NCBI GenBank assembly: GCA_022566775.1
Contig: JADFIJ010000005.1
Coordinates: 1-40,343, forward strand
From: Pseudomonadota bacterium
GTDB lineage: Bacteria; Pseudomonadota; Gammaproteobacteria; Pseudomonadales; Pseudohongiellaceae
DNA: 40,343 nt
Reading direction: 5' to 3'
Below are positions 30,080-38,373 of this stretch, one piece after another (the first letter of the stretch is position 1; each line of letters starts with the position of its first letter). A program made the translations under genes and the position numbers. Under the pieces are notes generated by a model that had not been told where the DNA came from, did no database searches, and saw nothing but the letters and a program-made list of their open reading frames with translations.

Positions 30080-33000
30080 CTAGGAAACCTGATGTTGATA
30101 GGCCAGCGCCCGCTCTTCCGAAGTGTCTGTGTGGCCAGTGAAATCATGCAAGATCACGTACAGACTGGGTACCAGGAACAGGGTAATGACCGTAGCAAAC
30201 AAGATCCCAAAGGCCAGGGAGATAGCCATCGGCACGATGAAAAACGTGGCTGGATTGGCTGATATCATCAGTGGCACCAGACCGATGAAGGTAGTGACCG
30301 AGGTGAGGACGATCGGCCGAAACCGCAACATGCCGGCTTCCGATACCGCCTCCACCATGCCCATGCCCTCATTCCGTAGTCGGTTGATGGACACCACCAG
30401 AATCAGGCTGGCGTTCACTACTACGCCACTGAGGGCGATTATTCCCAACATGGAGAAGAACACCAAGTCGGCTCCCATGATAAAATGACCGGCGATGGCG
30501 CCGATCGCTCCGAACGGAATCACACTCATGATGATCAATGGCTGTAGATAGGATTTCAGAGGTATGGCCAGCAGGGCAAAGATGACCAGCATGGCAAGGG
30601 GAAATGTATTGAGCAGGTCATCCATTGAACGCATCTGTTCTTCACCTTCGCCGCCAATAACGATTTCTACATCGAGTCGCCTGGCCCAATCGTCTGCATA
30701 CTTGGCAACGATTTCAGCACGGACCACATCGGGCTTGGCGACCGTGCGATCGATATCGGCACGGACCGTGATGACGCGCCGTCCGTCCTGTCGATTGATA
30801 CTGGAATAACTGCTGCCCAGGGTAAAACTGGCGATGCTGAGAAACGGCACCTCGGCGCCGCCTGGCGTACGAATCAGCATGTCCTCCAGGTCACCGAGAG
30901 ATTGTCTTTCTCCCTCCGGATAGCGAACCATGACGCGAATGTCGTCCGACCCCCGCTGGATGCGTTGGGATTCGGCACCATAAAACGCCTGCCTGACCTG
31001 GGTCGCGATATCGTTAAGGCTTAGTCCCAGGGTCTTGCCCCGTTCCAGAATTTGGATCTGCACTTCCTGCTTGCCGGCGCGAAACGAATCACTGATATCA
31101 AATACGCCGGGATATCTTGCCAATTCTTCTCGCAATTGTGATGCTGCTGTCTTCAGATTGTCATCGTTGCGTCCTTCCAGACGAAAATTAATCGCATCCC
31201 CAGCCGTGAACGCATCAGAGATAAAAGTTAATTCCAGGGCATCGGGAATGTTGCCTACTTTTTCACGCCAGCGATCGCGAATGAGAGCCGAACTCAATTG
31301 ACCCCGGTCGAAGAAGGGCGTCAGGTACAACACAACCTCGGCAATTTCGCTGCTGCCGGCACCACCTCGGAATGGCGTACTCGGTCCTTGCCGTGGCGCC
31401 CTGCCACCGATAATTGTAAGGACGTTGGCTATCACGTGTTCGGTCGATTCCAGCGCATCGCCACTGGCTTGCAGCAGCAGTAATTCTTCATCCAGTTCTG
31501 CGGATAATTCCAGGGCGGCATCCTCCAGCAGGCCAATAGCGTCTTCGGTAACATAGCCGGGAACTCCCGGGGGCATTTGCACGGTGCCATAGATTACGTC
31601 GCCTTCCACCGCCGGCATGAACTGAAAAATCACCCGACCGCTGAGCATGGTAGCAACTGTAATGATGACCACGCCAGTGGCCGTGGCCCATGCCGCATAA
31701 CGATATTTCAGGACCTTTCTCAGCGCACGTCGGTAACCGTGATCGGAAAAATACTCCAGTCGATTGGCAATGCCGCCCTGGAAGCGCTGCCAGCCTCTGA
31801 CCAGTAAGCTGTTCTCGAACAAGTAGCCTTCCGTCTTGCGGTGGGCGATATGGCCGGGCAGGATCAATTGTGATTCCACCAGGCTCGCGATCAGGCAGAA
31901 CACAACCACCGCGCCGATGGCATTGAAGAATGCGCCCATGGGTCCATCCAGCAACAGGATCGGCAGAAACGCAGCGATGGTGGTTAATACCCCGAAGATA
32001 ACTGGCATCGACACCTCGACGGTGCCTTCGATAGCCGCCTCTTCTTTAGACAGTCCCTTGGTTTCATAGGCGTGAATACGTTCCCCGACGACGATGGCGT
32101 CATCGACGATAATCCCCAGCACCAGAATAAAGCCCATGACCGTCAGGGAACTGATGGTCAGCCCGACTGTGGGAAACAGAATCAGCGCGCCGGCGATGGC
32201 GATAGGAATCCCTGCCGCTACCCAGATAGCCAGCTTAAACCGCAAAAACAAGGCCAGGATAATTAGCACCAGCACCAGGCCGGTGTACGCGTTCTTGGCG
32301 ACTGTACCGATACGCTCTTGCGTAGAAATTGCCGAATCGGTGATAACGGTCAGTGTCATGCCTTCGGGTAGCTGCAGTTCCGAAGACTGCATCCAGCGAC
32401 GTACCTCACGCGCCGAGGCGATGATGTCCTCATCGCCGATCCGCAGAATATCGATGATAGCGGCATTGATGCCGTCGAGTCGGGCATCCAGATAACCTTC
32501 TTCAAATCCATCTATGACCGTCGCGATGTCGCCCAGGCGCAACTGGGTCCCATCGGGGTAAGATTGCACCACGATATTTTCGTATTCGTCACCACGGTAG
32601 GCCTGTCCCTTGGTGCGCAACAGGATCTCACCCGAATCTGTTCTTATGGTGCCACCGGGTAAATCCAGTGAGGCGCGATCGATGGCCCGGGAAATTTGAT
32701 CCAGGGTCAGACCATATTGACGCAAGGTAAATTCCGACACCTCGATAGATATTTCAAAGGGTCGGATATATTCGATATTAACCGTAGAGATTCCTTCCAG
32801 GTCTAACAAATCGTTGCGAATTTCTTCGGCCTTCAGCTTGAGATTACGGTCGTCGGTGTCAGCGGCCAAGGCCAGGGTCATGACATTGCCACTGGAGGTG
32901 AAGGCCCGCACGATCGGTTTCTCGGTTTCAACCGGGAATGTGGATATCGCATCCACCTTGGCCTTTACGTCGTTCAGCACACGGTTCAGATCGGCTCCGG

Positions 33001-33292
33001 TCGTGATCTGTATGGTCGCGTCGCATCCGCCTTCCCGTGCCGTGCTAGAGAGACGCTCTATGTCCTCGGCACCTTCCAGTGCCTCTTCGATACGCAGACA
33101 CACGGCCGCCTCCGACTCTTCCGGCGTTGCCCCGAGATAGGCCACACTCACCTGGATCATGCCAAAATCTATATCTGGAAATTCTTCCTGATTCAGACTC
33201 GAATAGGACAGGAATCCGCCCGCCAGAAAGATCATCATCATCAAATTAGTGGCGACGGGATTTTTAACAAACCATGTAATAGGTGTTCTCAA
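30080..33292 (-). CDS. Efflux RND transporter permease (AcrB/HAE-like)
   Basis: 1070 aa. MRTPITWFVKNPVATNLMMMIFLAGGFLSYSSLNQEEFPDID; LGIIVDDAIVVGERIHAY; FRPIVLTSVTTFIGLVPLM. Confidence 0.95.
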   Translation of the reverse strand: MRTPITWFVKNPVATNLMMMIFLAGGFLSYSSLNQEEFPDIDFGMIQVSVAYLGATPEESEAAVCLRIEEALEGAEDIERLSSTAREGGCDATIQITTGADLNRVLNDVKAKVDAISTFPVETEKPIVRAFTSSGNVMTLALAADTDDRNLKLKAEEIRNDLLDLEGISTVNIEYIRPFEISIEVSEFTLRQYGLTLDQISRAIDRASLDLPGGTIRTDSGEILLRTKGQAYRGDEYENIVVQSYPDGTQLRLGDIATVIDGFEEGYLDARLDGINAAIIDILRIGDEDIIASAREVRRWMQSSELQLPEGMTLTVITDSAISTQERIGTVAKNAYTGLVLVLIILALFLRFKLAIWVAAGIPIAIAGALILFPTVGLTISSLTVMGFILVLGIIVDDAIVVGERIHAYETKGLSKEEAAIEGTVEVSMPVIFGVLTTIAAFLPILLLDGPMGAFFNAIGAVVVFCLIASLVESQLILPGHIAHRKTEGYLFENSLLVRGWQRFQGGIANRLEYFSDHGYRRALRKVLKYRYAAWATATGVVIITVATMLSGRVIFQFMPAVEGDVIYGTVQMPPGVPGYVTEDAIGLLEDAALELSAELDEELLLLQASGDALESTEHVIANVLTIIGGRAPRQGPSTPFRGGAGSSEIAEVVLYLTPFFDRGQLSSALIRDRWREKVGNIPDALELTFISDAFTAGDAINFRLEGRNDDNLKTAASQLREELARYPGVFDISDSFRAGKQEVQIQILERGKTLGLSLNDIATQVRQAFYGAESQRIQRGSDDIRVMVRYPEGERQSLGDLEDMLIRTPGGAEVPFLSIASFTLGSSYSSINRQDGRRVITVRADIDRTVAKPDVVRAEIVAKYADDWARRLDVEIVIGGEGEEQMRSMDDLLNTFPLAMLVIFALLAIPLKSYLQPLIIMSVIPFGAIGAIAGHFIMGADLVFFSMLGIIALSGVVVNASLILVVSINRLRNEGMGMVEAVSEAGMLRFRPIVLTSVTTFIGLVPLMISANPATFFIVPMAISLAFGILFATVITLFLVPSLYVILHDFTGHTDTSEERALAYQHQVS

Positions 33293-33362
33293 GGCCAGGC
33301 TCTCCCAAAACTTCCCGGGGATTTAAACCCAACCCGATCACTCGCCAGCGAGTCGAGCGCCA

Positions 33363-34535
33363 TCAGATCAATTCCTCAATAGGCCGCACCGACATGCCAT
33401 CGACCACCGCCTGGATCGGCGAGGTACAGATAAACTCGCCCGGCAACAGGCCTGCGCTTATCAGTACACGCTCTCCCTCCAGTCGGAATATCTCCACCTC
33501 CCGGTAATACATCTTGTTCTCGGCGTCGACTACCAATACCTGGTTGTTATTGCGAATCACCGAGCGAGGCAGAGATATGATGTTATCTACCGTCTTACCG
33601 ATAATGTCTGCCTGTACAAACAGGCCGATGGGAAGCGGGATCGATGCGGTGTCACCGGAACCAAACTCATCGCTACCGCTTGCTGGTTGTTGCACTCGAA
33701 TGATGGTCTGCACCGTATTGCTGTTTGGATCGATAGTAGCTTCGGTCCGCACCAACTTGCCCCACCACTTATGTTCCGTGCCACCGTAATAGCCTGTTAG
33801 CGTTACATCTGGCGCCTTATCTCCGGTCAATTCTCCTCGTGTGCCCAGTGGTATATCCAGGTAAGCCAGTTGACGAATAGCCAGGGGCACACGTACTTCA
33901 ACTTCATCCGCGCCATACAGCAGCGCAATGCTCTGGCCTCGATTCACGTACTGGCCCAACTCCACCTCGCGAGTAGCGACGATGGCATTGAAAGGGGCCT
34001 TGATATCGGTTCTGTCCAAATCCAGTTCGGCCTGGCGAAAACTGGCTTGTGCATCTGCCAATTTTGCCAAATTCACCGCCGCTGCGCGCTTTGCATCCTG
34101 CAGCTGGGCATCACTGGCGAGGCGCTGTTCGGCCAGGCCTATGAGTCGTTCCAATTCGTTGCTGGCATGATCTGCCTCGGCCTGGGCTTGTTGCAGAGAT
34201 GCCTGGCTGCGTGCCCTGGCGGTTTCAAAGTCTCTGGCGTCCAGGCGCAACAGGGTTTGTCCCGCCTCCACATAGGCACCCGCCTGCAAGGAGGGCGAGA
34301 TCCAGGCGACAGGGCCTGCAACGGCTGCGGCGAGGCTGGCCTGTCGCGCCGCCTGTACTTTGCCCTGCGACGCCACCACCAATTGCACCGAGTCCAGTTT
34401 CACCTTGGCCACACGCACCGTCACCGCATGAACTTCAGGTGCCGATTCCTCGAGTTCGATCGGCGTGTTAATCAGGTAGCCGGCAAACAAAATGCTGCCC
34501 GCCAAGATGGCAATAGGGATTACTACACGCTTCAT
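33363..34535 (-). CDS. Efflux RND transporter periplasmic adaptor subunit
   Basis: 390 aa. ASQGKVQAARQASLAAAVAGPVAWISPSLQAGAYVEAGQTLLRLDARDFETARARSQASLQQAQAEADHASNEL; FRQAELDLDRTDIKAPFNAIVATREVELGQYVNRGQSIALLYG. Confidence 0.94.
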   Translation of the reverse strand: MKRVVIPIAILAGSILFAGYLINTPIELEESAPEVHAVTVRVAKVKLDSVQLVVASQGKVQAARQASLAAAVAGPVAWISPSLQAGAYVEAGQTLLRLDARDFETARARSQASLQQAQAEADHASNELERLIGLAEQRLASDAQLQDAKRAAAVNLAKLADAQASFRQAELDLDRTDIKAPFNAIVATREVELGQYVNRGQSIALLYGADEVEVRVPLAIRQLAYLDIPLGTRGELTGDKAPDVTLTGYYGGTEHKWWGKLVRTEATIDPNSNTVQTIIRVQQPASGSDEFGSGDTASIPLPIGLFVQADIIGKTVDNIISLPRSVIRNNNQVLVVDAENKMYYREVEIFRLEGERVLISAGLLPGEFICTSPIQAVVDGMSVRPIEELI

Positions 34536-34596
34536 GCGTTTACTCCAGTTGCGTCCTTAATAAGCAGACACTTGTTAATTGATAGATCGTTCATAC

Positions 34597-35340
34597 TCAT
34601 TGTCCGGCAAGCCCTGACACGGCTTGCTTCTGATAACTGGCTTGCTTGAGACTAATCGCCTCGCTCACCGCTGTGCGTAATTCATCAAAATGCATCTGAA
34701 TTGTCGTCGCTGCCAACTCGGCGTCTTTGCTCGCCAGAGCCAGCTTGAGGGAATTCACTAATTGCTTGATGGTTGCCGGCTTCATCACCGGGTGAATGCC
34801 CAAATTCATCATCTGTTCAACGAATTGGGCCTTTAGATCATTGCCAATCAAACGCACCACCAGATTGTCGGCTACGGTTGCCAGGTATTCGAGAAATTCT
34901 CGCCACTGCGTCTGCATCGCCCCAAAGTCGCCGGCGAGCTTGCCAAGGCGTTCAACCATGCCCTGTAAGTTGCGCATCTCCTCATTGCTGGCCTTGTTAA
35001 TGGCCGATCGTGCCGTGAGTGCCGCAAGGGCACCGAAGGTCTGTAAAAATTGATCGACGAGCAGCGGATCCGGCACGTCATTGACCGCCATCAGCGGTCC
35101 CAATATGGCAATACTGGCGGCGTCGATGGCCTGTACTCTTGCACCCCCGGGCAAAATCCGGATCAGGCCCAGCTGTTCCAGCTGCGACAGGGCCTCCCTG
35201 ACGGCGCCACGACTGGCATTGAAACGCGCCGCAAGATCTCTTTCCGACGGCAAACGTTCGCCCCTGCGGTACTGGCTGCGCAATATTTCATCGCGCAGCA
35301 GGCTCGCAATCTCATGACTGATAGTGCTGTTTGCCGACAT
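34597..35340 (-). CDS. GntR/FadR-type transcriptional regulator
   Basis: EIASLLRDEILRSQYRRGERLPSERDLAARFNASRGAVREALSQLEQLGLIRILPGGARV winged helix, FCD-like C-terminus. Confidence 0.94.
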   Translation of the reverse strand: MSANSTISHEIASLLRDEILRSQYRRGERLPSERDLAARFNASRGAVREALSQLEQLGLIRILPGGARVQAIDAASIAILGPLMAVNDVPDPLLVDQFLQTFGALAALTARSAINKASNEEMRNLQGMVERLGKLAGDFGAMQTQWREFLEYLATVADNLVVRLIGNDLKAQFVEQMMNLGIHPVMKPATIKQLVNSLKLALASKDAELAATTIQMHFDELRTAVSEAISLKQASYQKQAVSGLAGQ

Positions 35341-36381: not shown

Positions 36382-38373
36382 ATGGAACCACTCAAGCGAT
36401 ATCTGATTGAAAATTTTGAATCCGTGTTCATTTTAATCATTCTGGTGTGCGTGACCGCCATCGTCTGGGTGGTAGAGGCCAAACTTTCCTTTCTGAACTT
36501 CTTCTACTTACCGGTGCTACTGGGTTCCTACTATCTGGGGATTCGATCGGGTGTTTTGGGTGCATTTTTTACCTTCCTGCTTATCGCGATTTTCGCCAGC
36601 TTATACCCGGAACGATTCATTGGCCCAACTGATATATTCAGTCTCTGGTCTTCGATTCTGATCTGGGCTGGATTTCTCATTCTTACCGCGGTAATCGTTG
36701 GCTTCACCCACCGCGAACTTCAGGAGAAGATCACCGAGACGCTACGTGCTAAGGCGGAAGCCAGCGGTAACGCCGAACTACTCGAACAAACCATGACCAC
36801 GATTCGTGAGTTCGAATCCGAACTTGACTACAAGGTCGAGGAAAGAACCCGGGTACTCGAAGAGAAGACCAAGTCAATCCGGGCCCACAAGGAAAAAGTC
36901 GAAGAGGCGCTTTACTCAACCATGGACCCTGCCGTGGTTAAGCTGATGATCGAAGGCCGTATCCGCACCGAGAATCGACGCATCAGCGTGCTGTTCTCCG
37001 ACTTGAAGGGATTCACCAGTTATTCTGAGGAGCATTCTGCAGAAGTCGTAATCACCGAACTTAATAAGTATCTCGGTGATATGGAAACGATCTTGTTGCA
37101 GTACTACGCACATATCGATAAGTACATGGGCGATGGCATCATGGTTGAGTTCGGCGCACCAATCCGCTATGAGAAGCATGCCTTGCTTGCCGTCACCTCC
37201 GCCTGGAAAATGCAGGCACACGTGCACACGGCCAATTATCCTTTCAAGTTACGGGTTGGCATTGCAACCGGGGTCGCGACGACAGGAATCATCGGGTCCA
37301 AGCGCCAGTCGTTTACAGCCTTCGGGGATACGGTTAATCTCGCCTCCCGCATCGAGGGCTTGTGTGAACCGGGCGAGGTGACGGTTGACGAAGCCACCTA
37401 TAATGACTGTAAAGATATTTTCGAATTCCGACCGGTTTCCCAGCTGGCCTCCTATAACCAGTCAGAAAAACTTGCTTTGGTCGAGAATATTGATGCCTTG
37501 CTGACGAAAATCGATACCTCGCCAAAAGACGTGGCCTTGCGCCTCAGTGTTGGAAAAGCTTTGATGGAAGCCAATGATCCCGAACAGTCGATTATTCATC
37601 TCAGATTCGCCATGGAACTGGACCCAAAAAACAGTGATGTGAAGATTGCCTATGCTGACAATATAGTCACGCTGGAGAAAACCCGCGACCACAAAGTAAG
37701 AGGCAGGCGTAGCACCGTTCATCTTTATGAAATAATCGGCTTGAAAAACCCACTGGATGATTGCAGGCAATTACCAGAGCATTTACTGGAAGGGTTGGAA
37801 GACAGACTCGCGCAACTGGTTAGCTATCCCGAAGACCTCATCTTGCCGGTGGAATGCATCGATGGCTCGGTGGGCTTTTCCCGCCTCACCGGCATCACGG
37901 CATTTTTAATCGCCGATGCCATGGGCTTGGTAGATCAGGAAAAACACGACATTCTGGAGGCAGGCTATCTGGCCGAGATAGGCAAAACCATCGTACCGGA
38001 AAATATTCTGAATCGAAACGGTGGTCTGACCGAAGATGATTTTACCCACATCCACATGCATCCGCGAGAGGGTGTGCGCCAGCTTCGCAATGCAGGATAC
38101 GAAAACGAGCGCATGTTGGAACTGATCGAGTGCCACCATGAGAACTTCGACGGCTCCGGCTACCCAGGGGGAATCAAGGCAGACAAAATCCCTGTAGGCG
38201 CTCGCATCCTTGCCGTTGCCGAGGCTTATATCAGCCTGACCTCGAAGCGCCCATACCGTGATCCATGGGAAAGTGGGGCTGCCCTCACTGAGATTGGCAA
38301 GTATGTCCGCTCAGGAAAATTTGATCCAGAAATTGTGGAAGTACTTGAAAAGATAATGGGTGCCAGCAAGTAA
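36382..38373 (+). CDS. Membrane class III adenylate/guanylate cyclase fused to a degenerate HD-GYP domain
   Basis: 663 aa. N-terminal TM segments, coiled coil (EFESELDYKVEERTRVLEEKTKS), cyclase domain (ISVLFSDLKGFTSYSEE, HIDKYMGDGIMVEFGAP, SFTAFGDTVNLASRIEGL), TPR-like segment, then LAEIGKTIVPENILNRNGGLTEDDFTHIHMHPREGV...ECHHENFDGSGYPGGIKADKIPVGARILAVAEAYISLTSKRPYRDP. Confidence 0.92.
   Translation: MEPLKRYLIENFESVFILIILVCVTAIVWVVEAKLSFLNFFYLPVLLGSYYLGIRSGVLGAFFTFLLIAIFASLYPERFIGPTDIFSLWSSILIWAGFLILTAVIVGFTHRELQEKITETLRAKAEASGNAELLEQTMTTIREFESELDYKVEERTRVLEEKTKSIRAHKEKVEEALYSTMDPAVVKLMIEGRIRTENRRISVLFSDLKGFTSYSEEHSAEVVITELNKYLGDMETILLQYYAHIDKYMGDGIMVEFGAPIRYEKHALLAVTSAWKMQAHVHTANYPFKLRVGIATGVATTGIIGSKRQSFTAFGDTVNLASRIEGLCEPGEVTVDEATYNDCKDIFEFRPVSQLASYNQSEKLALVENIDALLTKIDTSPKDVALRLSVGKALMEANDPEQSIIHLRFAMELDPKNSDVKIAYADNIVTLEKTRDHKVRGRRSTVHLYEIIGLKNPLDDCRQLPEHLLEGLEDRLAQLVSYPEDLILPVECIDGSVGFSRLTGITAFLIADAMGLVDQEKHDILEAGYLAEIGKTIVPENILNRNGGLTEDDFTHIHMHPREGVRQLRNAGYENERMLELIECHHENFDGSGYPGGIKADKIPVGARILAVAEAYISLTSKRPYRDPWESGAALTEIGKYVRSGKFDPEIVEVLEKIMGASK

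Follow-up and report, generated by a model that had tools for sequence, protein, structure and literature searches.

What does an HD-GYP domain do at the C-terminus of a nucleotide cyclase once it has lost the HD pair of a cyclic di-GMP (c-di-GMP) phosphodiesterase? The question is raised by a gene at positions 36382-38373 of a 40,343-nucleotide stretch of DNA (the window), which is one contig (JADFIJ010000005.1) of a draft genome of the Pseudohongiellaceae (GCA_022566775.1; 3.4 Mb, 299 contigs, 86% complete). Its near relatives are uncultured gammaproteobacteria from metagenome assemblies, one of them labelled Pseudohongiella, and the genus is marine. A preliminary description of this DNA had proposed a class III cyclase, probably an active adenylate cyclase, fused to an HD-GYP domain that had probably lost phosphodiesterase activity and might instead sense a nucleotide. 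We are highly confident of the fusion architecture and of the loss of the phosphodiesterase metal site; that the protein is a c-di-GMP-sensing adenylyl cyclase, in which the HD-GYP domain would bind the dinucleotide and gate the cyclase, we put at roughly even.

The reading frame has exactly the limits first described, every motif quoted for it is present (FSDLKGFT, DKYMGD, VNLASR, LAEIGK, HMHPREG, CHHE, DGSGYP and VAEAYIS), and both Pfam domains exceed their cut-offs by a wide margin: Guanylate_cyc at residues 199-349 (E 1.9e-26; 93.2 bits, cut-off 21.9) and HD_5 at residues 506-651 (E 1.1e-31; 110.3 bits). The layout is as follows.

36382..38373 (+): complete cyclase/HD-GYP fusion open reading frame, 663 amino acids, no internal stops
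36382..36726 (+): N-terminal membrane domain, residues 1-115, about four hydrophobic helices
36727..36936 (+): long helix, an S-helix-like coiled coil (ELDYKVEERTRVLEEK) leading into the cyclase, residues 116-185
36964..37431 (+): class III cyclase domain, residues 195-350, with D207, K247, D251, T312, N319 and R323
37459..37821 (+): TPR-like helices and linker, residues 360-480
37834..38346 (+): degenerate HD-GYP domain, residues 485-655
37876..37878 (+): F499, in place of the metal ligand H189 of PmGH
37972..37977 (+): A531-E532 (LAEIGK), in place of the HD pair, H221-D222 of PmGH
38161..38163 (+): Y594 of the GYP motif (DGSGYP), equivalent to the c-di-GMP phosphate contacts Y621 of DvhD and Y285 of PmGH
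38221..38223 (+): E614 (VAEAYIS), in place of the metal ligand D305 of PmGH; Glu in every orthologue covering the site
38248..38259 (+): R623-P-Y-R626, equivalent to the c-di-GMP contacts R314/K317 of PmGH and R650/Y652 of DvhD

Foldseek matches (9RBZ, 4MCW, 4R8Z) and the HD_5 profile place the C-terminal domain within the HD-GYP fold; on its metal ligands, it falls outside the HD-GYP phosphodiesterases. Our reference for the latter is PmGH (PDB 4MCW/4MDZ; PMC4159591), which shares the fold, the base-contact Arg and the GYP Tyr, but is an active, canonical phosphodiesterase with a trinuclear iron site. Its eight ligands E185, H189, H221, D222, H250, H276, H277 and D305 correspond to G, F, A, E, H, H, H and E here, such that five are replaced and only histidines (H560 of HMHPREG; H585 and H586 of CHHE) are kept. 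PmGH is left essentially inactive by a single alanine substitution at H189, H221 or D222 (PMC4159591). Since F499 also takes the place of the first histidine (H189 of PmGH), the site is more degraded than the altered HD pair had suggested, and the domain is predicted to be unable to hydrolyse c-di-GMP, in agreement with the earlier proposal. Separately, a DUF3391/HD-GYP protein encoded in the same genome (L026, contig C289) has LADIG for LHDIGK; it is another degenerate HD-GYP.

This degeneracy extends well beyond the window. The HD pair is non-HD in all 23 other copies from the genus that cover the site (AE, GQ, SQ, SE or CE); outside the genus it reads AD in G714 (48% identity), an orthologue belonging to a different family of the order, with the first His of HHE kept, and HN in G1113 (36% identity), which belongs to a different class: the pair has been altered three ways in three lineages. 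Glu replaces D305 in the genus copies, G714 and G1113 alike, and in five copies that group together H585, the first His of HHE, is also replaced by Ser or Ala. No homologue with an intact HD pair was found among the copies read, those from outside the genus amounting to two sequences. A sequencing error or a chance event can be dismissed as the cause of the altered pair, as all other copies covering the site lack an intact one. Every copy read is without at least one ligand needed for PmGH catalysis; the positions vary by lineage while the base contacts persist, a pattern that would be expected if hydrolysis had been abandoned and binding retained. The fusion must be old, as it is shared by orthologues of another family and another class. 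It is also uncommon, as had been suspected: it occurs in 26 of 137 family genomes, all of one genus, and in two isolated orthologues elsewhere. Searches of the order (392 genomes) and the phylum (399 genomes) each returned one full-length orthologue outside the family, and the remaining matches among those listed in the order search spanned about one domain only. The fusion was not found among 369 class genomes at the strict limit of E<=1e-50, and a search for plasmid-borne relatives found none.

The main support for a putative receptor role of the HD-GYP domain is the precedent of DvhD from Desulfovibrio vulgaris, which is its best match in the PDB both by sequence (9RC0, 7.1e-18) and by fold; the idea of a nucleotide sensor, advanced from the DNA alone, thereby gains a proven analogue, which is its nearest relative in structure as well. 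DvhD carries SQ where HD is expected, shows no hydrolysis of c-di-GMP, and was solved with c-di-GMP bound (9RBZ); the ligand occupies canonical and bridging sites, and the dimer geometry shifts (PMC13090378). Counting along the printed alignment with the published residue numbers (PMC13090378), several of which are in register, we equate L577, Y621, M646, R650 and Y652 of DvhD with L549, Y594, L619, R623 and Y625 of the window protein; R623 and R626 also correspond to the base contacts R314 and K317 of PmGH. Thus, five of the eight canonical DvhD contacts are identical or conservatively replaced and are invariant within the genus. More broadly, L549, L619, Y594, R623, Y625 and R626 do not vary in any in-genus copy that covers them, and L549, Y594, R623 and R626 are retained by every orthologue that does. 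The two proteins further share a degenerate HD-GYP domain, a membrane anchor and a coupling helix. On the other hand, DvhD receives its input through dCache and PAS domains, regulates a periplasmic protease by signalling from the inside out and has no cyclase: its output is periplasmic, whereas that of the fusion protein is presumably a cytoplasmic enzyme N-terminal to the HD-GYP domain.

That enzyme is predicted to be an active class III (IIIb-like) adenylyl cyclase, as was first proposed. All six catalytic and substrate residues are intact: D207 (FSDLKGFT) and D251 for metals, K247 (with D251 in DKYMGD) and T312 for base selection, and N319 and R323 (VNLASR) for catalysis. Its best PDB match by sequence, and also its top fold match, is CyaB of Pseudomonas aeruginosa (3R5G), a class III cyclase with which it shares the K/T substrate pair in the alignment; Cya2 (2W01, titled guanylyl cyclase), the second match, has E/G there. 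The deposited CyaB chain differs in having no HD-GYP or other c-di-GMP module. Guanylate_cyc is matched by 18 of 18 aligned orthologues and the K247/T312 pair is found in every copy checked; the exceptions at the metal Asp and Asn/Arg positions are two copies that have lost a catalytic residue, L019 (D207N) and L051 (N319K). The regulatory parts of CyaB are unlike those of the fusion protein.

From the architecture, the intact cyclase site, the broken metal site, the kept nucleotide contacts and the conservation of these sequence features across two classes, we infer cyclase activity, c-di-GMP binding and the sign of its effect. The protein would be a membrane-anchored class IIIb adenylyl cyclase with a C-terminal receptor, not a phosphodiesterase, for c-di-GMP or a related cyclic dinucleotide. 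Binding would alter the geometry of the HD-GYP dimer, as shown for DvhD, and the TPR linker, the least conserved of all regions, would pass this change on, turning the cyclase homodimer on or off. A second input may come from the N-terminal membrane domain, which weakly matches DUF4118 in 3 of 18 orthologues, and from the coiled coil, which resembles an S-helix (defined in PMC1592074) and has the lowest mean nonsynonymous divergence (dN) of all regions compared. If this is true, a cyclase with its own c-di-GMP receptor would link the two messengers directly in the direction from c-di-GMP to cyclic AMP (cAMP), and the principle of a degenerate HD-GYP receptor seen in DvhD would extend to an enzyme output.

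Another key observation is that the gene is repeatedly broken within the genus. Of 84 genomes, 29 retain the gene, whole or in part; leaving out one piece that ends at a contig edge (G085), 10 of 28 copies look disrupted in what are consensus assemblies. Five otherwise open genes (L001, L005, L015, L017 and L022) each have a single in-frame stop, the codons hit across the set being 13, 155, 214, 217 and 221; one has a frameshift that may be an assembly error (G131), and four are remnants (G084, G110, G122 and G060). In the G122 remnant (L108:1701-2462 (+)), an internal deletion fuses codon 116 to the HD-GYP part and there are several stops; the adjoining GntR gene has decayed too, the exception among our neighbourhood controls. 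Those controls, the RND permease (20 full and 1 partial), the RND adaptor and GntR, have no internal stop in about 36,300 codons, against 5 in about 15,200 fusion codons (Fisher p 0.002); GntR stops at residues 236 and 242 were counted as terminators, and we rejected single RND permease stops as internal, because none occurs up to residues 1066-1068 and they read as normal terminators. Mapping the broken state onto the tree takes five changes. The eight codons 214-221, at the start of the cyclase domain, hold three of the five stops, with a simulated chance of 0.004 for a pattern noticed post hoc. The L001 protein is 94% identical to that of the window, and a downstream start could partly rescue it. 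The fusion is kept across classes, yet dispensable locally; in many species of the genus its putative receptor input is dispensable and has been lost. The intact and broken alleles form a natural set for asking when the link is useful. This breakage, the further ligand losses and the degeneracy across classes had all escaped the preliminary description, whose overall interpretation we regard as partly supported. That we are dealing with a family of single-chain c-di-GMP-gated adenylyl cyclases, spanning two Pseudomonadota classes and recurrently lost by nonsense mutation or deletion in one marine genus, is a proposal that we place a little below even.

Several points weigh against a c-di-GMP-gated cyclase. 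The pocket is only partly DvhD-like, because K582 of DvhD aligns with F554 and its Y523 and E668 are without clear equivalents; in the outgroup G1113, Y625 is replaced by Trp, P539 by Ser and K535 by His; several of the retained residues reflect general HD-GYP conservation; the predicted models are of modest confidence (predicted local distance difference test scores of 65 and 75, with site loops below 50); and the recurrent gene loss means that the fusion is not essential. We also considered that the HD-GYP domain might bind no nucleotide and act instead to dimerise the adenylyl cyclase or to dock a protein partner, such as a GGDEF protein. GYP-dependent binding of GGDEF partners has been reported for RpfG, as cited in PMC4159591, NosR, also degenerate, has been suggested to target other enzymes of c-di-GMP (PMC12570481), and a NosR model matches our HD-GYP domain, but under its cut-off. 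Furthermore, a diguanylate cyclase gene adjoins the fusion in G1113: a hemerythrin-GGDEF gene (L113:5298-6446 (+)) is convergent with it, their ends 26 bp apart, in this one case only; the same neighbour, like the GGDEF proteins and the CRP-like regulator encoded in the window's own genome, counts as cell context in favour of the c-di-GMP-gated reading. Docking would not require R623, Y625, R626 or L549, yet these are kept while the metal ligands drift, and we consider a docking role unlikely, though a serious contender. The pocket could also accept a different nucleotide, be it 3'3'-cyclic GMP-AMP (cGAMP), pGpG or the cyclase's own ATP or cAMP, for feedback or as a different input; DvhD also takes cGAMP and, weakly, pGpG (PMC13090378), and the cGAMP phosphodiesterase V-cGAP3 is a close PDB match of the domain. 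The several GGDEF proteins in the same genome (seven matches) speak for c-di-GMP, and we judge such an alternative ligand improbable.

Two other readings were weighed. In one, H560, H585, H586 and E614 would still bind metal and cleave some phosphodiester: three of the eight ligands are kept and position 614 has Glu for Asp, but the equivalents of H189, H221 and D222 are lost and the five clustered copies have also lost H585, which makes residual or altered hydrolysis exceedingly unlikely. In the other, the whole protein would be on its way out in the genus and the HD-GYP degeneracy would merely reflect relaxed selection. The ten disrupted copies and the two with a lost catalytic cyclase residue fit such decay, as does the ratio of nonsynonymous to synonymous substitution rates (dN/dS), which is 0.29 between the window and L001, against 0.14-0.20 in four neighbouring genes, and 0.38 for the pair L014/L019. 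However, the other pairs with measurable dS give 0.01-0.08, the degeneracy is shared with orthologues of a different family and of a different class, and the contact residues stay constant across the genus; we hold decay to be very doubtful.

As a c-di-GMP-gated adenylyl cyclase, the fusion would differ from the systems we could compare it with. Bd1817 (PDB 3TM8) and NosR (PMC12570481) are likewise HD-GYP folds without the expected phosphodiesterase activity, but other motifs are broken in them and neither is fused to a cyclase. Bd1971 (PMC6717892), a cAMP-sensing EAL phosphodiesterase, is a single-chain link between the same messengers that runs the other way, with c-di-GMP breakdown under the control of cAMP, through other domains. 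In the papers that we found, published cAMP/c-di-GMP links operate via transcription (FleQ/cyaA) or rely on c-di-GMP enzymes that sense cAMP. In a literature represented mostly by titles and abstracts, with few subscription papers, we found no paper on a class III cyclase-HD-GYP fusion, and an earlier description is possible.

The reading frames that flank the fusion gene on either side lie on the opposite strand. Beside it are genes for an RND permease, an RND adaptor and a GntR regulator (window 30080-35340 (-)), and this adjacency is kept in the genus. We considered and rejected them as functional partners; they are not part of the system, because the two distant orthologues, in G714 and G1113, lack these neighbours and sit in unrelated contexts. 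CRP-type sites are no more frequent in the window than expected (13 matches against 14.5), and none lies upstream of the fusion gene. Elsewhere in the same genome, a second class III cyclase carries a C-terminal PilZ domain (L024:1060-2181 (-), contig C90; Pfam 1.4e-10), a candidate for another c-di-GMP-linked cyclase. A cyclic nucleotide monophosphate (cNMP)-binding domain is also fused to GGDEF (L100:1486-2508 (-), contig C138), possibly a link in the opposite direction, with cAMP controlling c-di-GMP synthesis. Since the genome encodes GGDEF proteins, a CRP-like regulator, the cyclase-PilZ protein and the cNMP-GGDEF protein, this organism has both messengers as well as further possible connections between them within single chains.
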